Assembly (NCBI GenBank): GCA_037176725.1
Contig: JAZBRS010000020.1
Span: 56,944,001 to 57,008,000 of the forward strand
Source: Posidonia oceanica
Taxonomy: Eukaryota > Streptophyta > Magnoliopsida > Alismatales > Posidoniaceae
Reading direction: 5' to 3'
DNA: 64,000 nt
In this document: piece by piece, positions 15,906 through 62,499 of the stretch
How the letters are laid out: each line of letters starts with the position of its first letter
Numbering within the stretch: the first letter of the stretch is position 1
The notes under the pieces: model-generated
The model's database searches: none
What the model saw: only the letters and a program-made list of their open reading frames with translations
What the model was told of the DNA's origin: nothing
Position numbers and translations under genes: made by a program

Positions 15906-16074
15906 ATCAATTCTCTCCTTTTCTTATCAATATCAATCATCAATTCTCTCCTTTTTCTTATCAATATCAATCATCAATTCTCTCCTTTTTCTTATCAATA
16001 TCAATCAATCAATCACTCTTTTTCTTATCAATCTCTCAACCAATCAATCAACAATAACAGCTCTCTCAGGCTGA

Positions 16075-38176: not shown

Positions 38177-39872
38177 ATAGCACCACACTTTGCACCCTCG
38201 CACGGGTATGCTGGCCCTCACATTACAACACCAGGTGGCGTGACGGTGGATCCGAAGGAGCGCTCTCGTGCGACCCGCATAGCATACGTGGTCCTTGCCT
38301 CTGCTGCACAACCATCGCTAGCAGCAGCCTCAGATGCCTTCCTTGCCAGGTTGGGTGATCCAGAGAGAGCACTTCGTCAAGTGCAAGGCCAGGACCGCCA
38401 GCCTTACCAATTTCACGACCTCTGTCTCTTTCCAGAGGCCGCACTCCCTTCGAAGTTCCGCATCTCGGACTTCAATAAATACAATGGTAGAGGCTGCTCC
38501 ATCTCGCATCTGAAGGCATATTACGGGGACCTTGTTCAACTTCAGGCTGATGAAAGGCTCCTTATCCGCCTATTCTAGAAGAGTTTAACTGGCCCCACGC
38601 TCAGGTGGTTCACGTTCCTTGACACGGCTGCGGTTCAGACTTGGACTGGTCTTTCTCAGGCTTTCCTTGAGCAATATGCTTTCAACCTCGACTTGATCCC
38701 CAAGAGGGAGGATCTCGTCGCCATCCGGCAAAGGCCCCAAGAGCCATTCGGGGAGTATGTCGGTCGCTGGCGCTCCACAGCCGCCCACGTTAGGGATAGA
38801 CCCTTCGAGGAGGATTTTATCGAGATGATCGTCAAAGGGGCGCTGCCAGCGACTGGGACTCTGCTTTGCATCCAGCACATCACTAGTTTTGCATCGCTGA
38901 TTAGGGCTGGCGCTCGCGTGGAAAGCTCACTACAGAGTAGGCACTTCCCCGCACTTTCTGCATTGGCTAGGCAGGCCAACGACACCAGCAATCGCCGCAG
39001 CAGCAGCAGCAACAACTCCGCTTCCGACTGCTCCAAGCAGCACGCCGTCACATGCACTGATCCTCCTGAAGTTCTTGCCCTTGCAGAAAGTTAGCCAGAC
39101 CCTTTTCCGCTAGTGCACGCACCTATTTATGCACCCACAGCACGCACTGTCACCGTTGAGCCAGTGCATCACGTCGCGCCAGCTTAGCAAGGACGACAGC
39201 CTGGGCAGAGACGAGTCCACCGCGCTAAGAGCGACTTCACCCCACTCGGTGAGCCACTAAGCGCAGTCTTTCCCCAGGTTGTGTCACTTCTGAGGCTTCG
39301 GGAAACTCGCCCGCCACCAAATCCTCTTCCGAGGTGGTACGATGCGAGCAAGTATTGCTATTACCATTGAGTCACGGGGCACTCGACGGATAATTGCCTC
39401 ACTCTCTGGGATGTTGTTCAGGACTTGATTGACAACGGGACCCTCGTCGTCAGTCCGTAGGAGGCTGCTCATACAGCTGCACCTACACTCGCACACCCTA
39501 GCGTAGCTGGCCCTTCCTTTTCTGAGCTTGCGGGCTTCGAGGATGCCGGAACCTCGGGGGCTTACCCCAATCTTCTTTGAATCCAACTCTGCCCCGGTGG
39601 GTCTTTCCGATCCCATCGGCGCAATCCCCTCTTCCTATCTCTCCCTGTTTGCCCAGGGGACACTCGGAAGCGCAACGGCACAATCGACAGCAAGCTCAGT
39701 CGCAACACCGTCTAGGTTAGCCTTTCCCCCAGCATCAGCAACCCCAGTGCTCCCCGCACTGCCATCAGCAGATCCAGCAGCCCTAGTGCTCCCCGCACTG
39801 CCAACAGTGGATCCCGCCGGCAGCATCAGCAGCATAGGGGCAGACCCAGCACCTCCCTCCCGAGGTTGCTGA
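38177..39872 (+). pseudogene. gag: gag of element C, C-terminal part with capsid and zinc knuckle
   Basis: It continues from 32320 in the same frame. Clear capsid motifs occur (LPSKFRISDFNKYNG, FGEYVGRW, IRAGARVESS), then CYYH...GHSTDNC (knuckle, near 39355). Stops are TAG 38576, TAG 39092, TAG 39185, TGA 39368 and TAG 39458; each could be a single C-to-T change. A frameshift between about 39460 and 39528 moves the tail, which is similar to A around SDLISDISEPF, into another frame up to TGA 39870. No protease follows: the next bases are a near-perfect splice donor. Confidence 0.85.
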
Positions 39873-39881: not shown

Positions 39882-40181
39882 CCCTCTTACCTCTCTTTTT
39901 TCTTGCATTGTCTTTTCTTTTCATTTTGTTTTGTTTTTGTGTTTTCTTGCCATGTCAGAAAATCATAAAAAGCATAAAGACAGCAAAAACCTTAAAAACT
40001 TGCATTTTTTCCTACATGCATTCAGCATCACTAGGCTGATACCCCTAACTATCCGGCGATAGGTCCGTTAACCTATCATCACTAGGCTGGCAGCCCTAAC
40101 TGCTCGGCGATAAGTCCGTCAACTTATCATCTGGGCTGATATCCCTAATTACTCGGCGATAAGTCTGTCAACTTATCACTT
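39882..40181 (+). repeat. Three hairpin-pair units of element C
   Basis: Three units, each GGCTGATA or GGCTGGCAG...CCCTAACT(AT/GC)..CGGC followed by GATARGT-(CCGTYA or CTGTCA)-ACYTATC. Second hairpins lie at 40058-40077 (GATAGGT/ACCTATC), 40109-40128 and 40158-40177 (GATAAGT/ACTTATC). Stem changes are compensated and the loop is nearly constant. Confidence 0.85.
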
Positions 40182-41624
40182 GGCACATATCAATCACTTT
40201 GCATGCATATTCGTCATCTTGCACATATCTGTCATCATGCATTGTCATTTATTGCATGTACATATCATTTCTTGCATCCCGTAAAGCGTAAAGCCAAAAA
40301 AATTAAGAAAATAAAAAAAAACAGCAAAAATATTTTCTTCGCCTTTCTATTGATTTTCCCTTTTATGTTTTCCTAAACAAAAATCATAAAAATACAAAAC
40401 CAATGCAAAACCCAAAAACATGTTTGTCCCTTCCCCTACTAAAATATACAAAACCCACAAACATTTGCATAATCAGAAACCCAGCTTTGGACAAACAAGC
40501 AGCGCCTGGAGGATGTCAAGCAGTGACGATCTCAGGCAGGTCTCACCCGAGCAGCGCCATCTCTTGCATGTGGCTACAGAGTGAGACTAGAGCAGAACAG
40601 AGCGACTCGCTGAGCCTAAAAAACTTCTGAAGCGAGATCCACCTTAACCAGAGAGTCCACCAGACATGGATAGGACCAAAGCAGAGCATAGCTAGAGGCT
40701 GTCGACACATTGCAGAGGCTGAGGGTGTACGCCGAGTAGCCGAACTCTCAATGCCTCACCTGGGACCGCTACCCCAAGAGGGCGAAGTCATGCATATCCA
40801 AAAGAATAGAGGTCATGTGAGCAAAAGAAATGACAACATGATATGCATGCTGAGCACAGAAGAAATATGCAGAAAGAAGTCAAAGAAAGAAGGCGCTCAT
40901 TAGAGGAGTGACGCGGACGAGTGTCGAAGCCACCTCAGCTATCATCTTCAAGCGCCACATTGGCAACTACACGGGATGCATTATCAGGAGGACCTGGCCC
41001 CACCTTCCGAGTGCAGCAGCACGCTCCAATCTCCTCTGCAGACATCTCTACTCCCCTGGCAGGCTAGATGCAACTCCAGTCACTCATGAGGGGAAAAGAA
41101 AGATCTATTCTGTGAGCGTCAAAAGCGGTAGTCGATCCCCGAAGAATTGAGACGGAGGCTAAGAAGCAGCATCCAACGCTTCTGCTACCCTGCAGCCAAA
41201 GACTATACTCTGCAAAGCTAAGGCCTCATCCCAAGCAAAGAATAAGAAAGAGAGCCACCGACCACAACTCAGCATGGAGTCGCTCGAGGATCGAGATCTC
41301 CTGAGTCAGGAATTGCAGAAGCACCCTCATGGCACAACTGCTTTGAGTCCAAAAGCCACCAAAACATGCATGCTGTAATATATCTTTATCTTCCCTTCTC
41401 CCTGTTTTCGAAAATCGGAGCCAAGGACAAGCACTTTTGCCTGCCTCGCTCAGAGGCTCATCGCTTTTCAAATTTTGCCGCCCACCGCGTGGGCAGGTCC
41501 GTGATAACCGGCATGTACCTCGTTTGTCACCTCGTGACGCCACGAAACGTGCCCACATTGAGACAATTGCACGCCTATCACGATGGGTTTCCTGTTTCCT
41601 TTCTGCATCATTCTGCATCCGGGT
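40182..41624 (+). other. Unrecognised internal region of element C
   Basis: 40182-40400 is A/T-rich with CATATCATTTC words. 40480-41300 is balanced in composition (GCAGACATCTCTACTCCCC, CGAAGTCATGCATATCC) but has stops in all frames and no motif I know. It could be an exon relic beyond the 39876 donor, or captured host sequence. I cannot assign it. Confidence 0.3.
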
Positions 41625-42410
41625 GGCAGCCCTAACTGCTCGGCGATGGGTCCGTCAACCTATCGTTTTATCATGCCATCATTCTACATCCGGGCTGGCA
41701 GCCCTAACTGCTCGGCGATCGGTCCGTTAACCTATCACTCTGCATTCCTCTACATCGGGCTGGCAGCCCTAATTGCTCAGTTGACGCCCGTTAAAACGTC
41801 ATCCTGCATATCCACGTTGCATTCGGGCTGATATCCCCAACTATTCGGCGATAAGTTCGTTAACTTATCACCCTGCATTTGCATTATTCCATTGCATTCC
41901 CCACCATCATTGCACTTTGCACGGTGAGCCCTTACATCCATCTCACTGCATTCGGGCTGGTAGCCCTAACTACTTGGCTAACAAACCTGTTAGTGTTGTC
42001 TCCACCTTGCATTTTGATGCCAGGGGCACTTCGGCTGTCCCCTGGTATCGTTCATCGATACCAGGGGCATCTTTATTTAGCTGCCCCATGGTATCCCATT
42101 TCCATCTGCATTTGGGTTGACATCCCTAACTGTTACGGGAGTGTCTATGGACCTCTACCACACCTTCGGGTATGGTATTCCCGTTGCATTCATGGTTACA
42201 AGCTATCCCACTTGTAATCACCCCTCTTGCTTGACAGACTCGCTGGCCTATCACCATCCGTGGGTTGATAGCCCTAACTATCCGGTGATGAGTCCGTTAA
42301 CTCCTCGCGGGCTGATAGCCCCAACTATCCGGTGATGAGTCCGTTAACTCCTCACGGGCTGATAGCCCTAACTATTCGACGATAGGTCCGTTAAGCTATC
42401 ACCCATTTCA
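41625..42410 (+). repeat. Hairpin-pair units of element C, second block
   Basis: Eight or more units of GGGCTGxxAGCCCTAACTxxTCGGCGAT..GTCCGTTAAC..ATC, including GGCAG/CTGCT, GGTAG/CTACT and GATAG/CTATC versions of the first hairpin and GATGGGT, GATCGGT, GATAAGT, GATGAGT versions of the second. At 42039-42067 is the 12-bp CCCCTGGTATCG/CGATACCAGGGG hairpin. The order matches the 3' regions of A and E. Confidence 0.85.
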
Positions 42411-43051: not shown

Positions 43052-46000
43052 TGTGAACGTGCCTCTTCCCTTTTGGGTTCAGACCGGAGAGGGTCCGAAA
43101 GAGAGAGGTTTTCACAGATGGAGCGACGTGAAGAAGGGAAAGATAAAGAAAAAGGGAGTCGCCACCTAGTCTATTCAATCGAGAGATGAGGAAAACCGGG
43201 GAAATGCATGAAAAACTTGCAAAACCACACAAGAAGATGCAATTCAATGCAAATGCTATGCAAAGAGGATGTCTCGTGCCAAGGATGAGGGAAAAAGGGT
43301 TATTGCGGGCCAGAGAAAGGGAAAGGACTCCTGCTACATGTGGGGAAGGTGTTAGGCACCCCCGACATGCCCGAGAAGCAGTCTTTCTAGGCTTACGCTT
43401 GCTTTTGAGGGGAAATGCATTCTTTGAATGCCTAAGTGCCATGAATGCCTAATTAAATGCTCAAATGTGTGCACTAAGTGTTGGAATGCGTGCAAGGAAT
43501 TAAACGTGCAGTCTAAGTGCTCAGTAGTGCTGTCTGTGTTCCGAACCGGGCGAACCCTGGTTCGTGAGAACTCCAGGCAGTAAGCATCACTGCCCTAATG
43601 CGAATGCAAGCAATTAAAACAAAACACCGGTAAAACCAGGCAATGCGGGCGACATGCAAAGCAAAACAACGTTAAACACGCAAAATGGTGCAAGAAGCGA
43701 AGGTCGGCACGCAAAACGGTGCAAGAAACAAGCGAAAAAAACATCGGAAATGCCACGCAATGCAGGGGTATGACAAGCAAAGGGGAAAGCAAATCCAGGC
43801 GAAAAACAAGCAATGCAATCGTAAAGGCAAAACATCGGAAAAGCCATGCAATGTAGGAGTACGACAAGTAGAAGCGAAAGCAAATTCGGGCGAAAAAACA
43901 AGCGATGCAAACGTAAAAGCGAAACATCGAAAAAGCCATGCAATGCAGGGGTATGACAAGCAAAGGTGAAGATTAGACGACATGACGGGCGTCAACCGGG
44001 CAGTTAGGGCTGCCAGCCTGGATGCAAAGGAGAGATAAGCGATGTGAGTGTAAGAACAAACACCGGAAGAACCACACAATGCGGGTGTGAAGACCTGCAA
44101 AGGGGAAAGGAAGCAAGTGGAGGGATCACTACTATTCTGCGACTGTTTCCTGCTAAACCGTCCCACGATGTGTCTCGCACGCTGCCCAAAGCTCGCTGCG
44201 CAATCGGATCATGGAAAAGGGGGGAGAAGGCTGCAATTAGAGGTGAATCCAAGGGAAAACTCAACCCAAAAACACTAAGGAGACGTGAAAAGAGGAAGCC
44301 GAGTAGATAGGCAAAAGGAGAAGCTCTATTCTACATGTGCGGAAAACGAGATGCGAAAACAGTGCATGCAAATGCAACAAATGATATGCAATGATACAGA
44401 AGGACTTACCTTGGAGATCTGAGGCCTGATCTGAGATGATCTTGGTCAGCAGAGAAGTCCGCTCTGCCAGGAGGATCCGAGTAGCTTGGTTGCGAAGATC
44501 CGACGGTCCGATCGGAAGATATCCAGGCTTCAAGGCAGAAGGTCCAAGAACTGGGGAGGAGAAGGGATCAAAGTGCAAAAAGGTCCTAGGGATGTGCAGA
44601 ATAGGGCCTCCCATATGCATGGGAGCTAAGGGTGCTCAAAAGTGTCCTAAGATACTAGGTGCAATGATATATGGGTGCAATGTATGCAAAAGTACAAAGA
44701 AAAGGACCTATGTGCAAAGAGAAAAAAATGCAGGGCGAGGCGCAAAATCAAAACAGGGTCCCGACAACATGCATGGGTGTTGTAGGCATGTACCGGGACC
44801 AACGAAATGCAAAGGGGCGGCGATTGAAATGGATTCGGCATTTAAAATGGGATGCAGCTTACAGCAAGTGTTGGACGCGACTAGCAGCAGCGTCCAATGT
44901 TGGACGTTGGAATAGCTCACGTCCTACACAGGCAGAAACCAGAATGCAGAAAACATGCAATGGAAACTTGGAAAACAGGGATTTGATGCAATGTAAAAAT
45001 CCAAGGATAGATAGGGCATGCTGGGAAATCAAAACACAAGGCCCAGAAATCAGAAGCAAGATCAAAGTGATTTTTGAAAAAAAAAAGAAAAAAGAAAAAA
45101 TGGCAAAGGGTGTTGGACGCTCAGATTGACAGCGTCCAATGTTGGACGCTGAGATCTGGACGTCCAACAACCAGGCCATGCTTTTTGAGAAAAATGAATG
45201 CATGTAGGCTGTATGGGTGCGATGCGGATGCAGAAATGTAGTACAATAGGTGCACGAGATGCAGGACCAACTTAACAGAGGATTAGAGGAGGAATCAGAG
45301 CAAGGGACAGGCCAGGATCAAGGATCAAAACAAATAGGTTGTTGGACGCCGGTAGGCATGGCGTCCAACGTTAGATGCCATAGGGGCAGACGTCTAACAT
45401 AGGCCAGAAGACAGAGAGGAGAGGAAGCAAACAAAAAGCAAACTAAAAGAAAATAAAATAAAATAAAAAAGGTGGGAGCATGCATTTGGGCTACTGGATA
45501 TGTGCATAGGACAAACAAGTGAACAAGGGGGGCATAAAAAATGCAATCAGACCTTACCTGTAGCTCGTGCCAGGTCAGAGACACAACCAGGTCATTGGAC
45601 GCGAGCTCGGCCGGCGTCCAATGTTGGACGCCAGCACCAGCAGCGTACAATGCCCTGGGAGGCACAACACAAGAAAAGACATGCATAAAATAGCAAAATA
45701 ATTCAAAGAAGCTAAAGAACAGTAGTTACTGAGGCTAGACATGCATGGTAACACAGAAGATATGAAAACAAGCAAGATCAAAGCATTATACAAGCTTTAA
45801 ACAAAAATTGAAGAGCCAGGACGTTGGACGCTGGAGCCAGCAGCGTCCAACGTTGGACGCTGAAGACTCTGACGTCCAACGACCAGAGCATGCAGACTTA
45901 CCTGTACTAAAGGGGGAGCTCAGCTCTACCCCACCTATGTGCATGCAAACACATTAAAGACATGCCAGAACAAAATAGACACCCACAGCAAGCATGGCAA

Positions 46001-47516
46001 GCATTTAATCCAAGAGGACAAGATAAAAAGGTAGCATGCATAAGAATATAGGCTTAAGACTTGCAAAAGGGAATAAGCAACTTAAAGAAATCCTAGCAAG
46101 CCTAAGCATGGTTGCCATAGGAGCCAGGCATCTCTAAGCAAGCATGGGTCACAAAATAACATCAAAAATATGCATGATGTAGGCATGGCAACAAGCTACA
46201 GCTAGCAGATATGTTGGACGCTAGGTGAACCAGCGTCCAACGTTGGACGTGGCTCACCCTGGCGTCCAACGCAGGCAGGAAGTAGATGGACATTTAAGCA
46301 TGCAAATGTGCTTTAAACTAGTAGGGAACAAGCTAATAAGCATGGCATAACATCAGAGAGCATTTAAGGAAGCATATGGCATGGATTTACAGAGAAGCAA
46401 GCAATAACAAGGCATGAAAGATAGCAGAACAAGAGCAAGGCAAGGGAGAGTGTTGGACGCCGGCCTATGCCGTGTCTAACGTTGGACGCACCAGCTGGTG
46501 TGTCCAACACACTGAACTCACTCTTGGTAGCGAATCACGACGAAAAGGATTCAAAAAAATGTAAAAATGCATGGGGACGTGCTACTAAGCATGCAAGACC
46601 AAAAGGGGTAGATAGCTTACCGTTTGGCGGCCTGGAACGGTGGCTCCACTTCGCTTGCCGGCGTTGCGGGTGTGTCTGTAGCAGCAACTTCGGCGAGGTC
46701 GCGTGAGTAGCTCGGAGCTCCGGAGGAGGTCGCGAAGGGTCGAGGACGGAGAGGGGAGTGCACTCTACGCTCTAGAGGTGGCGAATTCTCTCTGGTCTCG
46801 GTGTGGTGAGTGCTGCAACGGCTGGAAGGAGGCTGTTTTGTTGGGCTCGGGGGCTTGCATTCAACGGTGGCAGGGATTTTGGCAGGCAATGGCAGACCAT
46901 GGCAGGCGTGGCAGGCCGAAGCAAGAGTGGGAAGTCTTCGAGGAATGTCAGGTAGTTAGTGTGGAAGGTCCGGATGGTCGCCAAAGTCGTCGTGGTGGCA
47001 GAGATGGGTTGGCAAAGGTGGTGACCCCAGAGGTGAGCGGAAAATGGGCGGGAGTGAAAAATGAGGTGGTGGCAGGCTGTCACGCGGCCTTGGCGGCTAG
47101 TGGGTGGCGTGGAGTGGTGAGGGGATGGATAGTAAGTGGTGTACGGGCGGTGGAATGGACGGGAGGTGAGCCAGAGGTGGCAGAGCAACCGCTGCTGCAC
47201 TCGAGCTGTTGGACACCAGACCAGAGGGCGTCCAATGTAGGACGCTAGCACAGGCCACGTCCAACGTTGGATGCTGCCTATTCCAGCGTCCAACACACTC
47301 AGGTGGCACAAGCTGCAAATGGGCTTGAGTTTAGGCCTAGAAGGGTTGTAAAAGTTGCAAAGAGGCTTGATAAAGGCTTCTAGGGTTTGGGCAAGGTTTT
47401 GGGCTTGATTTTGGGCTAGAAAAATGGGTTAGAAAAGAGGGATGCCATTCCAGAGTCCACACGAGCCTGCAGGAGAAAACAACCAACTTTCGGGTTCTCA
47501 GAATGGGGTGTCTACA
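43052..47516 (-). repeat. 3' LTR of element E, 4465 bp
   Basis: Read on the minus strand it starts TGTAGACACCCC at 47516 and ends GGCACGTTCACA at 43052, a different end from the TACTACA of the others. It has twin-hairpin modules at about 44865, 45105, 45340, 45595, 45820, 46210, 46450 and 47210; a GC-rich block ending at GTAAGC (46620); an acceptor (AG at 43596-43595); and the conserved end with TGGCGACTC (43164-43156). At 43976-44025 it carries a hairpin pair of the type otherwise found in 3' regions. Confidence 0.9.
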
Positions 47517-47930
47517 AATGCCCCTCCTTGAGCAAGGTCAAGGGGGACCGAGGCCGCTACTCAGGATTGACAAGACACCCCATCTGAACCGGCGAGCGCG
47601 AAGTATGTGGGCGTGGGTTACTATTCCGACGGATGCGCCAGAAATCATGACCTGTCGCCAAAATGCGAATGCAAATGCAGATGCGAATGCAGATGTAATG
47701 CTATGCAATGATGATGCGATGCTGTTGCTAAAATATACCTGCACTAGTGTCTGCCACGCTGAGCTCCGTGGGGGAGATGCGGGCGATGCATGCTGACATG
47801 ATGTGAGATGCAACCCTGCCGGGGAGAAGCTTGCAGTGATTGTGCAAGATGCTGACGCTGCTACCTAGCATGTGATGCTGGTACTATTATCTAATGTGCA
47901 ATGCTGATGCAATGGGCAATGAGTTGACGG
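47517..47930 (-). other. Polypurine tract and conserved pre-tract block of element E
   Basis: On the minus strand the tract reads CTCAAGGAGGGGCATT (47517-47532) directly before TGTAGACACC. 47533-47670 matches the pre-tract block of A, C and D. 47670-47900 is rich in GCAATGCTGATGC words and has no further feature. Confidence 0.75.
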
Positions 47931-48180
47931 ACTCATTGCCGGACAGTTGGGGTTATCAGCCCAAAGAAAAGGACGCCAGACAGGGTGACAGGTGTCATCC
48001 AAGCAGTTTGGGCTGCCAGCCCAGAGGAGGGAGGGTAGCTTGTCCTCGCCCGAGAAAGCAAGCAGATGACCAGAGAGGATCGGAACAAAAGGGGCAAGAT
48101 CCCCCGTGAAAGAAAAGGGGGCATCTTTTCTGCTGAGAAAGCCAGCAAGAAAAGGGGGCGAACGACGAGTGATAGGCCTC
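47924..48180 (-). repeat. Hairpin pair and leader of the element E array
   Basis: On the + strand AATGAGT-(TGACGG)-ACTCATT (from about 47926) is followed by CCGGACAGTTGGGGTTATC. This is the minus-strand form of the CCGTCA-loop hairpin. 48040-48130 holds CTTGTCCTCGCCCGAGAAAGCAAG, the hairpin that is amplified in element D. Confidence 0.75.
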
Positions 48181-48189
48181 AGACCTATC

Positions 48190-49140
48190 GATCGCAAGAG
48201 GTCAGGAATGATAAGTGCAAGCCTTATCAAGACCAGGAAGGGACTAGGAATGATAGGTGCAAGCCCTATCAAGACCGGGATGAGGCAGGAAGAGGTCAGG
48301 AATGATAAGTGCAAGCCTTGTCAAGACCGGACCGCCAGGAATGATAGGTGCAAGTCCTATCAAGACCAGGAAGAGGTAAGAAATGGTCAGGAATGATAAA
48401 TGCAGGCCTTATCAAGACCGGACCGCCAGGAATGATAGGTGCAAGCCCTATCAAGACCAAGGAAAAGCAAGAAATGGTCAGGAATGATAAGTGCAAGCCT
48501 TATCAAGACTGGACCGCTAGGAATGATAGGTGCAAGCCCTATCAAGACCAGAAAAAGGTCAGGAATGATAAGTGCAAGCCTTATCAAGACTGGACCGCCA
48601 GGAATGATAGGTGCAAGCCCTATCAAGACCAGGAAGAGGCAAGAAGAGGTCAGGAATGATAAGTGCAAGCCTTATCAAGACCGGACCGCCAGGAATGATA
48701 GGTGCAAGCCCTATCAAGACTAGGAAAAGACAGGAAGAGGTCAGGAATGATAAATGCAGGCCTTATCAAGATCGGACCGCCAGGAATGATAGGTGCAAGC
48801 CCTATCAAGACCAAAAAAAGGTCAGGAATGATAAGTGCAAGCCTTATCAAGACCGGACCGCCAGGAATGATAGGTGCAAGCCCTATCAAGACTAGAAAAA
48901 AGGCAAGAAATGGTCAGGAATGATAAGTGTAGGCCTTATCAAGACCGGACCGCCAGGAATGATAGGTGCAAGCCCTATCAAGACCAGGGAAAGGCAAGAA
49001 ATGGTCAGGAATGATAAGTGCAAGCCTTATCAAGACCGGACTGCTAGGAATGAAAGGTGCAAGCCCTATCAAGACCAGGAAGAGGTCGGGAATGATAAGT
49101 ACAAGCCTTATCAAGACCGGATCGGAAGGAAAGATAGATG
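48190..49140 (-). repeat. ~91-bp tandem array alternating two covarying hairpins
   Basis: About ten units. Each unit has GATAAG-TGCAAGC-CTTATC (first at 48210-48228) then GATAGG-TGCAAGC-CCTATC (first at 48252-48270), separated by AAGACCGGACCGCCAGGAAT-like spacers. The loop is identical in both, and the one stem difference is compensated (A-T against G-C). The alternation holds across the whole array; one unit at about 49051 has lost its left arm. Open frames in it are artefacts of a period that suits all frames. Confidence 0.95.
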
Positions 49141-49670
49141 ATAGGTTTCGGACCCACCGACCGCGAGGGGGTAACTGATAAGATTCGGACTTATCGGCCG
49201 CAAGAGATTGGAATGTGATATGTTTTAGACCTATCGACCGCAGAGGAAAGGTGATAAGTTTCGGACTTATCGACTGCAAGAGGGAGGGTGATAAGTTTCG
49301 GACTTATCGACCGCAAGAGTTGGAAAGTGATAGGTTTCGGACCTATCAACCGCAATGGATCGGAATGTGATAAGTTTCGGACTTATCGACCGCAAGGGGT
49401 ACAGGGGCAAAGAAACGGATGGGCCCGCGATAGTTAGGCATGCCAGCCTAGATGCAGCTAGAGATGTGATACCATGGGGCAGCAGAAAAAGATGGCCTTG
49501 GTATCAGGGAGGATACCAGGGGACAGCTGAAGCACCCGTGGCATCGAAAAAGCGATAAACTAAGCTGACGTGCTTGTCAAACGAGTAGTTAGGGCTACCA
49601 GCCCGGTGATGAGTTGACGGACTCATCGCCGGATAGTTAGGGGTATCAGCCCGGTGGATACCCAGCCGGG
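49141..49670 (-). repeat. GATARGT-TTCGG-ACYTATC hairpins, long hairpin and hairpin pair in element E
   Basis: 49141-49400 has about seven units of GATAAGT-TTCGG-ACTTATC or GATAGGT-TTCGG-ACCTATC followed by CGACCGCAAGAG; again the stem varies in a compensated way and the loop does not. 49496-49522 is the CCTTGGTATC...GATACCAGGGG hairpin. 49612-49655 has GATGAGT-(TGACGG)-ACTCATC and GGATAGTTAGGGGTATC. Confidence 0.9.
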
Positions 49671-50017
49671 AGTGCTTGGCGGCTTTTGCCCGTGTTGACG
49701 GTGCTGGTCTGCAGAGATTCTAGCGTCCAAGTGGAATGCAGGGTCTTTTTGTAGCTTCCCTTGGCGCTGAGAGTGTTGATAGTTGCTTCTGAGCTTGTAG
49801 GTTCTGATAGTGCCCTCCTCATGACTCTGACGGGCTGAAGGAATATGCTGAAGATATGATTATAAGACCATGTATGCACCATGTTATGGAAACCAAACCA
49901 AACACACAAGCACATGGTACAAAACACCCTTGCATTAACAAAGTCTTGATTACACGCCTATAACGGGCAGAACAGAGTACAGCAAGACTCAGAAAGAGAT
50001 AAGCAGATGCGGAGGCC
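49671..50017 (-). other. 3' UTR of ORF2 in element E
   Basis: Read on the minus strand, it follows the ORF2 stop with sequence like that after ORF2 in A and D. It is T-rich and has no coding signal. Confidence 0.5.
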
Positions 50018-51220
50018 CTAGTCAGTACGGGCCTTCTTCGACTTCCTAGTGTCAGGGAAGGGAGGTGCGCCAGGCGGGATCTCATTAATGGGCCAGAGCC
50101 CCTGCACTTCCGTTAGATACTCAGGAGTACATCCTGAGCCCCTTGCTGCTGCAATGTCTGTGGACTTTATGCCATGGCGTAGGAGGTCTGCTAACTCTGT
50201 TGTGGGTGCAATTGTGCTGAAGGGATAGGGCTGGACTAGTTTTGGCGCAGTGCTGTCAACAAATGCCCCTTGGCGGAGACCAAATTGCCGCATAACCCGG
50301 ATGGGGTGATACTCTATGCCTTCGGTGAACCCTGGTAGGACGACCAGGCGCATGTCACGGGCGCCGAAGAAGACAGTGAACGGCTCTACTGCAGATGGGA
50401 TGATACGCCAAGTTATTGTATCATCAGTCAGCTGTTCCAGCCTTTCGTACTCTTCGCAGACGGTTTTGACAGTCTTAGCGTGGCCACTGCTGCAGTACGT
50501 CTCAAATGCATGCTTTTGGGGGCACAGGATGTCTACCTCTAGGTGTCCGGCCAACCATACTTGTACCAGGGCCCCGCAGCCATGAAAGTGGCGGTAGTGG
50601 TGTGAGATGCGGTCCAGTCTGTGGTATGTCTCAGCCAAGACAACGGGTGCCAGGTCAATTTGGTGGGTCACCACAGCAAGGGCAATCTCCGCAATCTCAA
50701 TAGCTACAGTCATCCGGCCATGATTGAAAATCAGCTCGCCTAGGAAACGGGTGACAAAGCCACGAAGCCACAATTCATCTCCTAGTTTAGTGTGCTTCTT
50801 GGAGACTTCTTCAAAACAGTTCAGGCGGAGCGTAGGTACAGGTCTGTCGACGCAGACCAGTCTCTTCTCACAGATTTGTGTAGAGAGTCCCGTAAGTTGC
50901 CTCAGGATGGTGACATAGCCAGAGCGCCTCATGAACACAGCAGGTCCCATGAGCGTGGAGAAGCCGCAGATTCGACGTACTTCCTCCAGCGTAAGCGTCA
51001 GCTCCGTCCTTTCGAAGCGAAAGACATGATGTGCTGGTTTTCAGAACCTTGCAGCAGCACACAAAAGGTGTCGGCTGACCTCCACATTAGCAGCTTTCAG
51101 GAGTCTGGGTGGGATGTCCTACAGGCTCAGCTTTTCACGATCAGCTTCGGTGAGCATAGCGATCCATCCTCGGAGAGTCTCAGAGTAGTGTGCTGGGGTC
51201 ACCAAGGTGGGGAAACCCAT
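50018..51220 (-). pseudogene. ORF2 of element E, two premature stops
   Basis: Minus-strand homologue of 13674-14876 with the same 401 codons. It starts MGFPTL at 51220 and ends RKSKKARTD. Two in-frame stops interrupt the first third: TAG at 51121-51119 and TGA at 51043-51041, the latter replacing the Trp of the RFW motif. The rest is open from 50950 and keeps the plant-mobile-domain-like motifs (FHGCGALVQVWLAGHLE, WRIIPSAVEPFTVFF, VMRQFGLRQG). There are no frameshifts, so it has decayed only by substitution. Confidence 0.88.
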
Positions 51221-54024: not shown

Positions 54025-54669
54025 AGGGATTTTGGCAGGCAATGGCAGGCGATGGCAGGCGTGGTAGGCTGAAGCAAGAGTGGGAAGTCTTCGAGGAATG
54101 TCAGGTAGTTAGTGTGGAAGGTCCGGATGGTCGCCGAAGTCGTCGTGGTGGCAGAGATGGGCTGGCAAAAATGGTGAGCCCGGAGGTGAGTGGAAAACGA
54201 GCGGGAGCGAAAAATGAGGTGGTGGCAGGCTGTCACGCGACCTTGGCGGCTAGTGAGTGGCTTGGAGTAGTGAGGGGATGGATAGTAAGTGGTGTACGGG
54301 CGGTGGAATGGACGGGAGGTGAGCCAGAGGTGGCGGAGCAGTCGCTGCTGCACTCGAGCCGTTGGACGCCAGACCAGAGGGCGTCCAACGTAGGACGCTA
54401 GCACAGGCCACGTCCAACGTTGGACGCTGCCTACTCCAGCGTTCAACACACTCAGGTGGCACAAGCTGCAAATGGGCTTGAGTTTGGGCCTAGAAGGGTT
54501 GTAAAAGTTGCAAAGAGGCTTGATAAAGGCTTCTAGGGTTTGGGCAAGGTTTTGGGCTTGGTTTTGGGCTAGAAAAATGGGTTAGAAAAGAGGGATGCCA
54601 TTCCAGAGTCCACACGAGCCTGCAGGAGAAAACAACCAACTTCCGGGTTCTCAGAATGGGGTGTCTACA
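54025..54669 (-). repeat. 5' LTR of element E, first 645 bp only
   Basis: It corresponds to 46872-47516 base for base apart from about 30 substitutions, and it starts TGTAGACACC at 54669. At 54025 it joins integrase sequence directly; the two partners share almost no homology at the join, which fits end-joining or illegitimate recombination rather than LTR-LTR exchange. Confidence 0.92.
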
Positions 54670-55605
54670 ATTGCATTTCCACTTTTCCATGTGCATGCAC
54701 CATCCCGCTTTCCCCTAGAGGAGTACAACGCAGTAAGCGTTAGCGTAAGCATACCATTTGCATCAGCATAGCATTCTAGTGTCTACATTCATCTGCATTT
54801 GCATGCACCTTCTTGCATTGCTTAGGGCATCCTTTGCATTGCATTGCCCCTTCTGCTTCTTCTGCCTGTTTGTTGCCTCGGCTGGAGGCAAGCATTTTCT
54901 CCTTCTCACAGCCTCACGAGCTTCTGCTTGTTTCACTTGTCCCGAACGGACAAGGACCCTTTGGTCTCCCCCGGAAGAGCAGCTAGCCTGCCCGAGTGGT
55001 AAGCGCGGTAGTCCACCTGGAGCTGCTTTTTGCGCAAGTTTGGACAAGAAGCCAACTTGTCTCATTGCATCGTAGAACTTCCTGCTTTCCCTCGCTTCAG
55101 CATGCATCACTTTGCACTACCCTAGCATTCCCTGTTTGGTGGCTGCATTCGCAGCACCGGCACACACAGCATTAGCACTAGCACTCACAAGCATGACAAG
55201 CACTCAAGCATTAGAACCCGCAAGCATAGCAAGCACCTGTAGCATCAGTATCAGCATTAGCACCAGCACTCACCAGGCATCAGCATAGCATCTCCCCATG
55301 CACAGCACGCGCACGTGCACTAGTTCATACTAGTTTAGCATCGGCATTTGCATCACACACCAATTCTACATTAGCATCTGCACTAACATAACATATGCAC
55401 TAACTTTTGCATTAGCATGCATTGCATTGCATTAGCATTCGCATCTGCATCTGCATTGTAGCATCGAGTCATGATTTTCGGTGCATCCGCTGGATAAATG
55501 ACTCACACCAATAGCAATTTGCGCTCCTGCTAGCGTCAGGTAGGGTGCCTTGTCTACCGTGAGCAGCGGTCTCGCTACGCTTGACCTCGCTCAGGGAGGA
55601 GCATC
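54670..55605 (+). other. End of the element C internal region, with polypurine tract
   Basis: It resumes after the ATTGC duplication. It contains a hairpin CTTGTCCCGAACGGACAAGG at about 54935 and CATTAGCA-rich simple sequence (55130-55440). The conserved pre-tract block (55450-55592) includes GAGTCAT...ATGACTC, and the tract AGGGAGGAGCATC is at 55593-55605. Confidence 0.75.
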
Positions 55606-56572
55606 TGTAGACACCCCATTCCGACAGCCCGGAAGTTGGCAATTTCTCCTGCAGGCTTGTTTGGACTCTGGAATGGCACTCTTTTTCAGACTAACCCATT
55701 TCGAAACCTAAAACCTTACCTAAACCCCAAGCCTTAACCCAAGCCTTTTTATACCTTTTTAAACCTTTTTAAGCCCAAGCCCAAGCCCATTTTCAGCCTT
55801 TTGCATCCTGGGTTTGTTGTACGCTGGAATAGGCAGCGTCCAACGTTGGACGTGCCCTGTGCTAGCGTCCAACGTTGGACGCCTTTTGCTCTAGCGTCCA
55901 ACGACTCGGTTGCAGCAGCGGCTGCTTCGCCTCCTTCGGCTCACCTTCTGTCCACTCCATCGCCCCTCCGCACCTACTACCCATCCCCTCTTGCACTCCA
56001 GGCCATCCACTACCTTCCAAGGCTGAGTTACTCCACTTACTAGCCATCTTTTCTTCCCCAACCCATTTCACACTCTCTCTTCTCCTCACTGCCATCCGCC
56101 ACTGGTTTCTCTGCCACCAGCATCTTTGGTGCCGCCTTCTGACCTGCCCACGCCCCCTCCTGCCATCCTCGTGCCTTCCCCTCACCCAGAAGCCCTGCCA
56201 CAGCCCTGCCATCGCCTGCCATTCCTTTGCAAGCTGCTGCCATTTTGCAGCAGAACCCATGCACCCGCACACAAAACCATGCCAAACAGCCACCTTTGGA
56301 AGCACGCACTGACTAGCACAGCCCTCCTCTTGCCAATTCACCACCTCTAGAGCAAAGACCAAAGATCCACCTTCCTTCCCGATCCTTCGCTGCCCTCTCC
56401 CGTGCCCCCAGCAAACCAAGCAAGCTCGCCGGAGTCAGCCCTGCCGCCATCTTCCGTAGCGCCGGCCGCGAGCTCGACATGTTGTTCTAGGTCGCGCACA
56501 GGTAGGTTCCCGCTTCCCTTAGCTAGAGCACTCATGCAGTAACATGCTAGGATAGTTAATACACCTGCACGC
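55606..56572 (+). repeat. 3' LTR of element C, first ~967 bp, cut by element D
   Basis: It starts TGTAGACACCCC. Exact or near-exact palindromes lie at 55839-55856 and 55865-55882. 55889-56567 matches the 5' LTR at 27028-27700. The donor-like CACAG-GTAGGT (56512) is conserved with 27638. Sequence of C stops at about 56572, where the end of element D begins; CACGC (56568-56572) is the likely target duplication. Confidence 0.88.
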
Positions 56573-59500
56573 TGTAGTAATCCTGAATTCTAATCGTCCA
56601 TGCACGATACCAAAGCTCGCGTGCACCAATCAAAATAGGCTCACTATATGCGGCAGGATTTGAGGGAAGAAACTCGACTCGGAAACGTTGGCAAAAGAAA
56701 AGAAAAGAAATGATGAGACAAAATCGGAGTCGCCACCAGGTCTATTGAATTGGAAGACAGGGAAAATCGGGGGTAAAGCATGAAAAGACATGCAGAACCG
56801 GATGCAAAGAAGGGGCAAAGGGATGCAATGCAATGCTATGCAATGCTATGCTATGCTATGCTATGCTATGCTATGCTATGACTCATGCCTAGGATAAAGG
56901 AAAGGTCGATGCGAGGCAAGAGAAAGGGCAAGGACTCCTGTTACGCACGGGGAAGGTGTTAGGCACCCCTGATACGTCTGAGAGTCGGTCTTTCTTAGGC
57001 AATCTCGCGCTAATGCAGGGAAATGCTAGCCTAATGCCTAAATGCCAGCCTAATGCCTAAATGCCATGGATGTCTACCTGCTATGCATGGGAAATAAACG
57101 TGCTATCTATGTGCTCAGCAACGCTGCTAGTGTTCCGAACTGGACGGACCCTGGTTCGTGAGAACTCCTAGGCAGTAAGCATCATAGCCCTAAATGCAGA
57201 TGCAGGCGATAAAGTAAAACTGCAGGGAAAACCAAGCAATGCAAACGACATGCAAGCGATAAAGCAAAGCAGGTGCGGAAAACGGGATGAAAGCGGGGTG
57301 CAAAACCAAAACAAGGGTTAGGCAGCATGCATAGGGGTTGCAGCAAGCATTAGAAGCCATAAAACGCAAAAAACGGCGAGCGGAGCAAAATCAACATTTT
57401 AAAACCAAGTCAAGCCAATTGCAAGCGTTGGACGCTGGCAACAGCGGCGTCCAACGTTGGACGCTGTCATCACTGGTGTCCAACACTTGCTGGAGGCAGA
57501 CAACATGCAACTTTTTAGAAAACCATGCATTCTAGCTATATGGATACAATAGAGATGCATGAATGCAACTAAATGGGTGCACGACATGCAGGACTAACCT
57601 AACAGAGGATTAGAAGAGGAATCAGAGCAAGGAGCAAGCTAGGATCAAAGATCAAAGCAAGCAGGTTGTTGGACGCCCCTGAGCATGGCATCCAACGTTA
57701 GACGCCAGAGGGACGGGCGTCTAACACAGGCCAGAAGATAGCAAGAGAAAAAAGCATACAAAAGGCAAAATAAAAATGGGGACATGCATTTGGGCTACTG
57801 GGGATGAGCATAGGGTAGACATGCAAGCATGGGATCACACAGAAAAAGCCAAAACTTACCAGCTCCAGCATGTGCCAGGCCAGAGGCACAACCAGAACGT
57901 TGGACGCGAGCTAGGCCGGCGTCCAATGTTGGACGCCTGCACCAGCAGCGTACAACGCCTTGGGAGGCACAACACACAATAAACATGCATAAAATAGCAA
58001 ATAAACTAATGAAGGCTGAAGAGCAGTTGAAAAGGAAACTAAACATGCATACAAACGCAGGAGATAGGTAAGCAAACAAATCAGAGCATCATGCAAGCCT
58101 TAAACAACAAAATGAGGGGCTGGGACGTTAGACGGTGGAGCCAGCAGCGTCCAACGTTGGACGCTAAAGGCTCTGGCGTCCAACGAGCAAAGCATGCAGA
58201 CCTACCTGTACTAAAGGGGGAGCTCAGCTCTAACCCCACCTATATGCATGCAAACATACAAAGGCATACTAGAGCAAAATAATCATGCATAGCAAGCATT
58301 TAACTTATGGAAAGCATTGAAGAGGAAAGCACGCATAGGAGTAGGATTAAAACTTTGCAAAAAGGAGCAAGCAACTTAAAAAGATCGTAGCAAACCTAAG
58401 CATGGTTGCCATAGGGGCCAGGCATCTCTAAGCAAGCATGGGTCATAAGCAAATATCAAAAATAAGCAAGGTGTAGGCATGGCAGCAAGCTACAACTAAC
58501 AGAGGTGTTGGACGCTAGGTGAACTAGCATCCAACGTTGGACGCGGCTCACCCAGGCGTCCAACGCAGGTAGATGACAGAATGATATTAAAGCATGCAAA
58601 GATGATTCAAGCAAGCATGGAACAAGCAAATAGGCATGACATAGCATCAGAAGACTTTTAAGGAAGCATGCAGCATGGATTCGCAAAAGAACCAACAATA
58701 ACGTAGCATGGAGAGCAACAGAACAAGAGTAAGGCCAGACAGGGTGTTGGATGCCGGCCTATGTCGTGTCCAATGTTGGACGCACCAGCTGGTGCGTCCA
58801 ACACACTGAACTCTGTTCTGGCCACAAATCACGACCAAAAGGACTCAAAAATAATATGAAAATGCATGGGAACATGCTATCAGACATGCATGACCTATGG
58901 GGATAGAGGACCTACCATTTGACGGCTTCGAATGGCGATTCCACCTTGCTTGCCGGCGTTGCTGATGTAGTGGCAGGAACTACTTCTGTGAGGTCGCACG
59001 AGCTACTGGAAGCTCCAAAAGAGTCGGCGAAGGGTCGAGGACGGAGAGGGGAGATCACTCTTGCTCTCGGAGGTGGCGAATTTCTTCTTGGCTCTGTGTG
59101 GTGACCGCTGGAATGGCTGGAACTTGCGGTTTTGTTCAGCTCGCATGGGTTCAAGTACTGGCAGTCAAGGTTGCAGGCCAAATTCTGGCAATTGTAGGTG
59201 GTGGCAGGTGCTAGTGAGTGTGGGGAAGCCACTAGGATTGTCAGGAGAGGGCATGGGTGCTGTCAGAGGGCCGGCGAGGTCAGGACGATGGCAGGTGTGG
59301 GCCGCGGAAGTCAGCTGCTGGCAGTGAGGGCTTAGAGAGCGGTTTTGGTGCTGATGAGGAGGGGATGGGCAGTAACTTGGGCTTGGAAGGTAGTGGATGG
59401 CGTGGAGTGGAAGAAGGGACGGGTAGTAAGTGCGGGGAGGCGGTGGAGTGGACGGGCGGTGAGCCGAAGGGGGCGGAGCAGTCGCTGCTGCAACCGAGTC

Positions 59501-59797
59501 GTTGGACGCTGAAGCAGAGGGCATCCAACGTTGGACGCTAGCACAGGGCGCGTCCAACGTTGGACGCTGCCTATTCCAGCGTCCAACACACTCAGTTGGC
59601 AAAGGCTGCAAATGGGCTTGGGCTTGGGCCTAGGAAGGTTTTAAAAGTTGCAAAGAGGCTTGGGGTAAGGCTTTTAAGGTTTGGGCAAGGTTTTGGGCTA
59701 GAAAAAGGGTTAGGAAAAAAGAATGCCATTCCAGAGTCCACACGAGCCTGCGAAAGAAAACAACCAACTTCTAGGTTGTTAGAATGCGGTGTCTACA
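56573..59797 (-). repeat. 3' LTR of element D, 3225 bp
   Basis: Read on the minus strand it starts TGTAGACACC at 59797 and ends GGATTACTACA at 56573. Twin-hairpin modules lie at about 57425, 57665, 57895, 58125, 58505, 58745 and 59500, with perfect 18-bp palindromes at 57447-57464, 58147-58164 and 59550-59567. A GC-rich block ends at GTAGGT (58915), the acceptor AG is at 57191-57190, and TGGCGACTC is at 56735-56727. Confidence 0.92.
56846..56880 (+). repeat. (CTATG)7 microsatellite in the element D LTR
   Basis: Seven perfect CTATG units, preceded by variant CAATG units. The C LTR has a related but unexpanded stretch (TAGCATAGCATAGCG) near 29955. Confidence 0.95.
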
Positions 59798-60245
59798 GAT
59801 GCCCCTCCCTGAGCGAGGTCAAGCGTAGCGAGACCGCTGCTCAGGGTAGACAAGACACCCTACCTGATGCTGGCGAGAGCGCAAATGATTGTAGGCGCGA
59901 GTCTTTCACTCGGCGGATGCACCGGAAAACATGACTCAGAGCCACCATGCAGATGCAGATGCGAATGCTGATGCTGATGCAATGCGTGCCAGTGCGGATG
60001 CAATGTATGTCGATGCAGCTATTTACCATGCAATGCTGTTAGTAAAAGAATGCGATGCTGATGCAGAAGGGGATGCGAAGAAAGTTGCAATGCAATGCAT
60101 GGGTTTGGCAATTAATCCAAGCCCACAAAAGAAATGCCTGACAAGACTGACGGGCTTGGCATCCGAGCAGTTAGGGCTGCTAGCCCAACAAGCAAGAGGG
60201 GTAGACAATTGGACGGCTGTCGACTGAGCAATTAGGGCTGCCAGC
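59798..60245 (-). other. Polypurine tract and conserved pre-tract block of element D
   Basis: On the minus strand CAGGGAGGGGCATC (59811-59798) abuts the LTR. 59812-59960 is the conserved block, with GCGGTCTCGCTACGCTTGACC and CCGGTGCATCCGCCGAG. 60150-60245 holds a worn hairpin pair (CAGTTAGGGCTGCTAGCCC). Confidence 0.8.
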
Positions 60246-60249
60246 CTGC

Positions 60250-61965
60250 AGGGGAAAACAGAGGCAGCTTGTCCTCGCCCGAGGAAACAAGCAAGAAAGA
60301 GAAAGGGGGCAGGCAAATGTGGGCATCGTCCGCACATAGCGAAGCCACGCAAGGGCTGATCCTCGCATGAGGATACAGGGCAGGACTCCGGGCATACGGG
60401 GTCCGAGGAGAGCTTGTCCTCGCTCGAGGAAGCAAGCAAGAAAAGAAAGGAGGTAGACAAGAGTGGGCATCGTCCGCACGGAGCGAAGCCACGCAAGGGC
60501 TGATCCTCGCATGAGGATACAAGGCAGGACTCCGAGCATGTGGGGTCCGAGAAGAGCTTGTCCTCGCCTGAGGAAGCAAGCAAGAAAAGAAAGGGGATAG
60601 GCAAGCGTGGGCATTGTCCGCACGGAGTGAAGCCACGCAAGGGCTAATCCTCGCACGAGGATACAGGGCAGGACTCCAAGCATACGGGGTCCGAGAAGAG
60701 CTTGTCCTCGCCCGAGGAAGCAAGCGCGGTCTCCGTGCGGACGGAGACGACAAAGGCTTGTCCTCGCCTAGGGAAGCAAGCGGGGGATTTCGCGCGGACG
60801 GAATCCGAAGGGGGCTTGTCCTCGCCCAAGGAAGCAAGCAGCAGTCTGATCCTCACCCGAGGGAACAGATAAGGGACTTCGTCCGCACAGAGCGAAGTCA
60901 CTCGAGGGGCTCGTCCTCGGCCAGGGAAACAAGCAGGCCTGATCTTCGCTCGAGGAAACAGGAGGGACTTCGTTCGCACGGAGCGAAGTCACAGGGGGCT
61001 TGTCCTCGTGCGAGGAAGCAAGCAAGAAAAGGAAAAAGGCTTGTCCTCGCTTGAGGAAGCAAGCAGGAGGGAAAGAAGAAAGAAGCTTGTCCGTCTGCAC
61101 AGAGTGGAGCCACGTGAAAAGGAAAAAGGCTTGTCCTCGCCCGAGGAAACAAGCAAGAAGGGAAAAAAGGCTTATCCTCGCCTGAGGACCAGTAGGAAAA
61201 GAAAGGAGGGGGCAAGCATGGGCATCGTTCGCACGGAGCGAAGCCACGCAAGGGCTGATCCTCGCACGAGGATACAGGGCAGGACTTCGAGCATACGGGG
61301 TCCGAGAAGAGCTTGTCCTCGCCCGAGGAAGCAAGCAAGGCATGCATACGCTTATCCTTAGCCGAGGCATAAGCGAGCCTGATCCTCGCCTGAGGAACAG
61401 GGAAACTCCATCCGCACGGAGCCACGCAAGGCTTGTCCTCGCCCGAGGAAGCAAGTGGGTCTGATCCTTGTGCGAGGAGACAGACAAGGGCTCTGTTCGC
61501 ATAGAGCCAAGTAGGGATTGTCCTCGCCCGAGGAAACAAGTAAAAAAGGAAAAAGGGCTTGCCCTCACCCGAGGAAGCAAGCGAAAGGAAAAAGGCTTGT
61601 CCTCGCCCGAGGAAACAAGCAGGAGGAGCAGAAGAAAGAAGCTTGTCCTCGCCCGAGGAAGCAAGCAAGCCTGAATCCGTCCGCACGGAGCGGAGTCACG
61701 CGAAATGAAAAAGGGCTTGTCCTTGCCTGAGGAAGCAAGCAAGCGGGAAAAAGGCTTATCCTCGCCCGAGGACAAGCAGGAAAAGAAAGGAGGCAGGCAA
61801 GCGTGGGCATCATCCACACGGAGCGAAGCCACGCAAGGGCTGATCCTCGTATGAGGATACAGGGCAAGACTCTGAGCATACGGGGTCCGAGAAAAGCTTG
61901 TCCTTGCCCGAGGAAGCAAGCAAGAAAAGAAAAAAGGCTTGTCCTCGCCCGAGAAAACAAGCAGA
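60250..61965 (-). repeat. Hairpin array CTTGTCCTCGCCCGAGGAAGCAAG in element D
   Basis: About 25 copies of a 34-bp unit built on TCCTCG-(CC)-CGAGGA inside CTTG...CAAG, mixed with GATCCTCGCACGAGGATA and CTTCGTCCGCACGGAGCGAAG hairpins. A higher-order unit of about 145 bp (GTGGGCATCGTCCGCACGGA ... GGTCCGAGAAGAG) begins at about 60312, 60455, 60600, 61210 and 61800. Nearly all sequence here can fold locally. The long frames through it on both strands are artefacts. Confidence 0.92.
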
Positions 61966-62499
61966 AAAAGTAAGAAAGCGATACTAAAGAGCAGCTAAAA
62001 AGATGCTCTTGGTATCAAGGATGATACCAGGGGATAGTCGGAGCGCCCCTAGTATCAAAAGCAAGGAATATGCAGACAAAACTAACGCATTTGCCAAGCG
62101 AGCAGTTGGGGATGCCAGCCTAGAGCGATCTGGGCAAAGGCGATCGCGGCGATGCATGGGTCTGCAGAGGTTCTTGCGCGCATGTGACTGCAGGGGGAGC
62201 TTTGCTGCAACTCTCTTGCTGAGGCTACGGATTGCATGGTGCTTGGGGAGGGAATTGTTCTAGATCTCTTGTGGGTACTGCTCTAGGCTACTTGCATGAG
62301 CTAACGCTTTGGGGTGCTTGATGCAGGTCCTGCAACATCCTGGCAGGAAGAGACATTCAATAGGCAAGGCATGCAACACAAACAAATGGCGTGAAATGTC
62401 TTTGTATTGAGTGAATCTCTGGTTACACGTCTCTGGTAGGCCAAAAGAGATACAGCATGGTTCAAGAAAAGCTATACAAGCTAACAACTGCATGGACGC
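61966..62499 (-). other. Hairpin and ORF2 3' UTR in element D
   Basis: The hairpin GGTATC (62011-62016) / GATACC (62023-62028) extends with wobble pairs towards CAGGGG and matches those of A, C and E. 62085-62125 has GAGCAGTTGGGGATGCCAGCC, a first-hairpin relic. 62380-62499 is the sequence that follows ORF2 in A and E (minus strand CCATGCTGTATCTCTTTTGG). Confidence 0.7.

Follow-up and report, generated by a model that had tools for sequence, protein, structure and literature searches.

A tandem array that strictly alternates two hairpins, which differ from each other by one compensated base pair, raises the question whether such a pattern testifies to selection on folding or only to the way in which it was copied. 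An array of this type is found in a 64,000-nucleotide stretch of the Posidonia oceanica genome (assembly GCA_037176725.1, contig JAZBRS010000020.1, positions 56,944,001 to 57,008,000 of the forward strand; hereafter the window). The window contains several giant Ty3/gypsy elements, some of them partial, for which the letters A, C, E, and F are used as working labels that are distinct from the hairpin forms A and B. The array belongs to element E, and the initial annotation of its sequence had offered two explanations, namely selection on RNA or single-stranded DNA structure and the amplification of a dimer whose two halves were already structured. With a probability of about 72%, we consider the array to be an amplified A-B dimer in the 3′ untranslated region (3′UTR) of an Ogre-type (Tat) element, situated amid a tract of stem modules whose main stem, S2, would be kept paired.

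The presence of an array of approximately 91-bp units was confirmed by Tandem Repeats Finder (period 91, 9.9 copies, 48199–49085). A tolerant match revealed 21 hairpins between 48210 and 49112, 11 of form A (GATAAG/CTTATC) and 10 of form B (GATAGG/CCTATC, decayed copies being typed by position), which alternate without exception. Their start-to-start distances are 39 from A to B, with a single case of 42, and 52, 53, or 42 from B to A. Since the sense strand of element E is the minus strand, the sense loop of the array reads GCTTGCA. Two further claims did not hold, as the loop, described as never differing, departs from TGCAAGC in five of the 21 hairpins (48343, 48395, 48749, 48922, and 49094), and the stems, whose only difference was said to be compensated, carry one-sided changes in four of 21 cases (48304, 48395, 48749, and 49052). 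Among the eight distinct hairpin sequences of the array, the covariation count found just one pair with both sides changed. In the entire window, 250 hairpins with a stem of 6 and a loop of 4–10 were counted versus a mean of 116.8 in 20 shuffles (range 86–140), the 48-kb bin being the richest one (n = 35).

The array descends from one A-B dimer that carried one compensated difference, because the two forms are also told apart by flanking sites whose letters go with the hairpin type. All 11 copies of form A have T at position −8 and all 10 copies of form B have C, and positions −11, −10, and +25 track the type nearly without exception. A search of the genome (2,962,952,704 bases, 80 contigs) with a hairpin pattern whose stem was left free yielded 73162 exact forward and 119806 exact reverse matches, with none for the reversed control. 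The 100 places listed for this free-stem pattern comprise 41 of form A, 31 of form B, and 28 that are incompletely paired, with no other paired stem. Genome-wide, the array pattern is thus skewed between the strands, unlike the PK1 module described below (36061 vs. 35588), and long one-way satellite arrays may exist.

Twenty comparison arrays of the same genome, taken from the best matches to the array of the window, contain 16 to 52 pattern matches each and show the A/B alternation with slips. With both stem and loop left free, they gave 525 matches, of which 217 are form A, 193 form B, and 115 incompletely paired. Of the latter, 95 have one bad pair and 20 have more, at least seven of these 20 being off-target with the loop AAGATAT, and new fully paired stems did not occur among the 115. 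As written, and with the off-target rows counted in, the mismatches are of the G.T type in 50 and of the A.C type in 55 cases. Because no new paired form appeared in the 525 matches and because the flanks follow the type, the units are found to derive from one dimer with no independent compensated change among them, which speaks for the second of the two explanations initially offered, forms A and B being the sole fully paired forms in the relatives. Selection on structure is not borne out for the array, where the arms change singly and the G.T and A.C mismatches are about equal, and finds its support instead in the main stem of neighbouring 3′UTR modules that had not been described before. 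By themselves, the alternating hairpins provide no evidence of ongoing selection on folding.

The same observations bear on the idea that the array hairpins themselves function, for instance as kissing loops in which the palindrome TGCA at the end of GCTTGCA, present in many copies, may join two genomic RNAs. TGCA is kept in both of the commonest loops (357 and 77 of the 525 matches), and a 281-nt sense piece of the array is predicted to fold with a z of −4.54. However, the antisense strand folds almost equally (z −4.29), the stems decay uncompensated and without a G.U bias, and the Ty3 dimer signal differs in that it lies at the 5′ end, according to a passage of PMC11381356 on the structure of Ty3 RNA and on the palindrome by which it dimerises. 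A function of this type is consequently regarded as very unlikely.

The array is located in the 3′UTR of element E, between the last open reading frame (ORF) and the polypurine tract. This assignment, with minus as the sense strand, follows from the location of polypurine tracts and of the long terminal repeat (LTR) starts that adjoin them (+17438, +55606, and −47516), and the minus-strand order in element E is ORF (51040–50018), array (49137–48199), and polypurine tract (47529–47517). The elements can be called Ogre-type (Tat) Ty3/gypsy from their predicted domains, because a second RNase H and a plant mobile domain match the features given in passages of PMC6317226, which describe an aRH domain, located between RH and INT, as common to Ogre and Retand and state that 57% of Ogre elements have a plant mobile domain. 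In element A, the ORFs at 4193–11185 encode gag, protease-like, reverse transcriptase, and RNase H domains, with RVT_3 after the first RNase H; within the pol ORF, RT_RNaseH covers 927–1031 and RVT_3 covers 1092–1210, and the integrase, read downstream, was identified by eye, while the protease-like stretch scores below the Pfam cutoff. The plant mobile domain (PF10536) scored above the cutoff in each of the three ORFs of this kind that were scanned, one each in elements A, E, and F. Element E is without the region of the second RNase H, so this feature would apply to it by homology. In element E, the initial part of an LTR (54669 down to 54025), which is 95% identical to 47521–46872, abuts an integrase-like stretch (54016 down to 52942), and most of the 5′ LTR, gag, and pol are apparently missing from this element.

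On the sense strand of four tracts, short units with two interleaved complementary segments, S1 and S2, were read and are here called modules. PK1 has the form GGG-CT-GATAG-CCC-TAA-CTATC, and PK2a, CGG-C-GATAAGT-CCG-TCA-ACTTATC, directly follows many PK1 and has the relatives PK2b, PK2c, PK2d, and PK3, all of these names being used as labels only. A position-weight scan that was seeded with the modules of the window and did not reward pairing gave 76 matches, of which 72 were counted after four weak ones had been dropped (+48166, +50397, −41873, and −48945). All but one of the 72 lie on the sense strand in element tracts (A 32, C 21, E 15, and F 3), the remaining one lying in the LTR of element E, and the same scan of three shuffled windows yielded no match. 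In the genome, 352 modules, 351 of them on the sense strand, were found in 24 of the 58 loci scanned; modules were also present in one of 12 random 5-kb stretches, too few to reveal new families, and were excluded from all counts. The module tracts are shared by four elements of the window and are repeated about 10^5 times across the genome. The modules are very common, with 71649 exact genome matches of PK1 and 133021 of PK2 with both arms.

The order of the modules is conserved. Seventeen of the 20 longer E-type loci have the same succession of PK1-PK2a-PK1, PK2c repeats, a gap that the hairpin array occupies, and more PK1/PK2 modules; the exceptions are L047 and L049, which are without the first part, and L055, which is without the first PK2c repeats. 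Because this order places the array gap there, the hairpin array sits inside a PK2c tract. When the 28 bases following each of 27 PK1 were tested for a second module, a mean score of 13.7 was obtained versus 6.8 in shuffles, with p ≤0.05 reached in 15 of the 27 cases and not in the other 12.

The S2 stem of these modules covaries. Among the PK1 modules of the window, 23 S2 cells have both sides altered versus 9.0 in shuffled sets, with slid versions giving at most 6, and PK2a has 10 versus 3.6, with slid versions giving at most 1; in both cases the observed number was reached by none of 500 shuffles. Taken alone, PK3 shows a weak excess (339 of 5000 permutations reach the observed value) and PK2b no pairing excess (5000 of 5000). 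When the S2 letters were left free, the genome yielded 36061 + 35588 matches for PK1 and 66708 + 66313 for PK2, with no match for the reversed controls. The places listed for each of these module patterns (n = 100) were the first ones of the genome and no random draw. In the 100 listed PK1 places, 289 of 300 S2 pairs are formed, a count that omits the fixed A-T pair and compares with a permutation mean of 248.7 and a maximum of 264, and the 34 distinct PK2 arm pairs among the listed places have 138 of 170 cells paired (permutation maximum 136). Moreover, at two neighbouring S2 pairs, A-T or G-C is joined with T-A or C-G in each of the four possible ways, A-T with C-G being found once in the window and once among the listed PK1 places. 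These observations support the view that selection keeps S2 of the modules next to the array paired, as far as can be judged from comparing copies.

Where S2 departs from pairing, it leans toward G.U. Module sequences common to at least two loci contain 19 G.U versus 5 A.C and private ones 82 versus 22, the innermost PK1 and PK2c pairs being omitted, and the first pair of PK1 is G-C in 26, G.U in 66, A-U in 6, another combination in 2, and A.C in none of the 100 listed places, although shared descent weakens all of these counts. Such a lean would fit pairing in the sense RNA and would be unexpected if the arms were alike for reasons acting on DNA, and we infer that selection may act at the level of RNA rather than DNA. 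It also bears on template switching during DNA or cDNA synthesis, which might make and repair the stems by copying one arm onto the other in each event, without any selection on RNA. A passage of PMC8794818 argues that template switching can create stems and help to maintain them, and compensated arms with an unchanged loop, as seen here, can arise in one such event; furthermore, any short inverted repeat would be subject to the process, among them the arms in element F and in the H1-H2 region (see below). Nevertheless, it predicts equal numbers of G.U and A.C, in disagreement with the 19 to 5 of the common S2 sequences and the 66 to 0 of the listed PK1 places, and it should have mended the hairpin array, in which none of the 115 deviating matches is re-paired. 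An inverted loop is absent from the 12 commonest array loops, no systematic search for inverted loops having been made. Altogether, template switching is judged unlikely to be the source of the paired stems.

It is even harder to reconcile the modules with paired sites of a DNA-binding protein, for which both arms would keep the same half-site. GATAAG resembles the plant I-box, and GATAAG and CTTATC arms recur across several arrays. However, the arms shift jointly to GGCA/TGCT, GACA/TGTT, AGTA/TACT, and AATGAG/CTCATT, by which complementarity is kept and a single site is not, and the modules hold one orientation relative to the element, so that binding sites appear a highly improbable explanation.

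For the second helix, S1, the picture is different. Its arms vary by class (GGG/CCC, AGG/CCT, CGG/CCG, CAG/CTG, CGC/GCG, and CGT/ACG), and across classes 165 of 180 pairs are formed, a number reached by 8 of 5000 within-class permutations, with five PK2d modules added by hand. This is suggestive of class-to-class changes in matched form. Departures in S1 of the common module sequences amount to 5 G.U versus 11 A.C and thus do not lean toward G.U. When S1 was left free and S2 was fixed, the 100 listed PK2 places had 1, 2, and 3 double changes with 2.1, 2.1, and 0.8 expected, which is no clear excess, along with 26 G.U versus 40 A.C. As nested folds give the PK1-PK2 pair other pairings, S1 is not asserted here. 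A generic pseudoknot scan returned 38 and 39 matches per strand versus 8–12 in six shuffles; since it matched on both strands, it was discarded as a strand test and replaced by the profile scan.

Several observations weigh against the proposed reading. Within PK2, the S1 arms decay independently, as CpG-rich DNA does, and for this reason a pseudoknot is kept as a possibility. The copies are kin by descent, so the shuffle counts overstate independence, and the 20 comparison arrays are close relatives owing to their choice among the best matches. PK2c alone shows no pairing excess, with 1310 of 5000 permutations attaining the value observed. When each distinct arm pair of the listed PK1 places is counted once (n = 22), 55 of 66 positions are paired, which 26 of 5000 permutations reach. 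In 43 of the 100 listed places, PK1 leaves its innermost S2 pair open, so that many copies have a stem of four pairs. A broken PK2 S2, GAAAG/CTGAC, accounts for 14 of 100 listed rows from a few tandem arrays, and T.C stands at the third PK2 pair in 26 of 100. Finally, the flanks of the hairpins resemble those of PK2c marginally (0.033 and 0.066 of 1500 controls), and because of this marginal likeness we infer, rather than observe, a descent of the array from PK2c.

Some of these points would also be expected if the entire tract were a functionless plain satellite, palindromic units of which amplify well. The array was copied as a dimer and then drifted, PK2 arrays with broken S2 were amplified too, the strand skew of the array matches (73162 vs. 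119806) hints at long one-way arrays, and a passage of PMC7004042 describes Tat 3′UTR tandem repeats as hypervariable and as seeds of satellites. On the other hand, a plain satellite would account neither for the module order kept in 17 of 20 E-type loci nor for the covariation of S2 between families, and this explanation is therefore considered rather unlikely.

For an amplified dimer within a tract of paired modules, the following course of events can be envisaged. The single A/B difference would already have been there before the dimer was amplified, and the dimer probably originated inside an older tract of related PK2c stem modules; PK2c flanks the array on both sides and also occurs in forms A and B. 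The modules of the tract would fold via S2 in the sense RNA, with S2 staying paired while its letters change between element families. The array may have grown through a reverse transcriptase (RT) that paused at the stems and primed anew on a neighbouring unit of identical sequence or, alternatively, through unequal recombination after insertion. The modules might serve the element through RNA stability, translation, or packaging.

Tandem repeats in Tat 3′UTRs are known, and passages of PMC7004042 and PMC11963269, within which Macas 2009 is cited on the subject, describe them as hypervariable in monomer and length and as a source of satellites; their origin and function are stated to be unknown in PMC11963269. 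The units described here are like those of Ogre and Retand in lying at the same site between the last ORF and the 3′ LTR and in being family-specific, the array units differing among elements A, E, and F. Unlike the published repeats, they carry stems that covary between families. The main text of PMC11963269 contains none of the terms hairpin, pseudoknot, and secondary structure, that of PMC7004042 contains neither hairpin nor secondary structure, and a literature search of titles and abstracts, with subscription journals outside its scope, found no report of covarying stems in Tat 3′UTR repeats. The consecutive, compact stem modules in a 3′UTR are also reminiscent of the upstream pseudoknot domain of tobacco mosaic virus, and PK1 and PK2 abut without a linker, a spacing that would fit H-type pseudoknots as in this virus. 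In contrast to the viral domain, which has been structure-probed and tied to translation and replication (passages of PMC4683447), the modules are known from sequence alone, have no Rfam match, and have an S1 that is unsupported within a class.

A self-cleaving ribozyme or another known RNA was considered and rejected, as Rfam gave no match in the window at the gathering score; covariance models at E up to 1 likewise gave none in 47500–49800, and ARAGORN with bacterial settings found no tRNA in the window. Outside the own genome, the DNA patterns had no match in viral_contigs or genome_contigs. For the plant mobile domain alignment, 47 and 39 pattern-matched stretches were obtained outside the own genome, none of which was confirmed, and a protein search yielded 27 matches (26 ena, 1 jgi), all on contigs no longer than 2185 bases.

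The features of the window are compiled in Table 1. The H1-H2 region recurs at 15346–15466 (A), 42008–42096 (C), 49470–49562 (E), and 61978–62060 (F), with minimum energies of −54.4, −47.2, −25.7, and −33.1 kcal/mol, respectively, calculated with no shuffled control. Its four arms can fold as two neighbouring hairpins or nested, and some matched changes between elements were noticed by eye. The array of element F (60284–61913, minus strand) is made up of hairpins in which a CCTC...GAGG core is enclosed by varied outer stems, such as GCTTGT/ACAAGC, GCTTGC/GCAAGC, GTCTG/CAGAC, and CCTG/CAGG; its mean outer stem is 4.67 versus 4.27 when permuted, a value reached by 1 in 1000 permutations. At 23852–24690, sites flanking GCAYAA change alike in several of the 18 listed units as direct, non-complementary copies (CCAG...CCAG, CCGG...CCGG, CCGA...CCGA), other units differing, with no test against chance. 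In element C, a gag-like stretch (38201–39565) is followed within 0.5 kb by module tracts (40033–42400) with no pol match between them, and this element is probably non-autonomous or deleted. Within the 3′ LTR of element E, and thus outside the 3′UTR, PK1 is followed by a CGG-TT-GACG-C-CCG-TCATGT-CGTC module (43976–44019, minus strand). The window contains 13 perfect palindromes of the form CGTCCAAYGTTGGACG (28163, 44891–46234, and 54411–59550), mostly in presumed LTRs.

Table 1. Coordinates of the array, the surrounding modules, and other features in the window.
Feature	Position	Strand	Remark
Tandem array of alternating form A and form B hairpins, sense loop GCTTGCA	48199–49137	−	Hairpins at 48210–49112 (n = 21)
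PK2c array, CGGTC-GATARGT-CCG-AA-ACYTATC	49139–49396	−	Seven copies, stem forms A and B
Single diverged PK2c module	48171–48194	−	Other side of the hairpin array
Adjacent PK1 (49652–49632) and PK2a (49631–49608)	49608–49652	−	No linker
PK1, then PK2d	49558–49604	−	PK2d with S1 CGT/ACG; S2 partly broken in this copy
PK1	49429–49449	−	Decayed here; form common to sister copies pairs better
PK1	48002–48022	−	
PK1 and PK2a pair	47918–47962	−	S2 AATGAGT/ACTCATT, compensated form of GATGAGT/ACTCATC
Polypurine tract AAGGAGGGGCATT	47517–47529	−	Directly ahead of the 3′ LTR, which begins TGTAGACACC at 47516; read from sequence
Plant mobile domain (PF10536) ORF, element E	50018–51040	−	Sense-upstream of the array; homology extends to 51220
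GATACC-type hairpin region (H1-H2)	49470–49562	−	Counterparts in elements A, C, and F
Coding region of element A: gag, protease-like, RT, RNase H, second RNase H, integrase, plant mobile domain ORF	4193–14876	+	
3′UTR of element A: PK1, PK2a, PK2b, and PK3 modules	15175–16891	+	32 of the 72 counted modules
Element C: PK1 and PK2a modules	40033–42400	+	21 modules, downstream of the gag-like stretch
Element F: PK1 and PK2d modules, GCTTG...CAAGC hairpin array	60140–62121	−	3 PK1 modules; 29 hairpin cores at 60284–61913

Taken on its own, the array is an amplified dimer and as such ordinary, and a compensated alternation of two hairpins in an array is by itself no evidence of selection. Its setting is more interesting, since in Ogre-type 3′UTRs it lies among stem modules that are abundant, follow a set order, and have a main stem that covaries between families. 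A more far-reaching proposal, that a modular set of tandem pseudoknots functions in the sense RNA of Ogre-type 3′UTRs and that pausing of the RT at them multiplies the units, is regarded as distinctly unlikely; if true, it would explain the conservation of module order and the origin of the hypervariable arrays and of the satellites derived from them. If the units are indeed RNA stem modules, as the covariation of S2 suggests, the question of the origin and function of Tat 3′UTR repeats would become testable.
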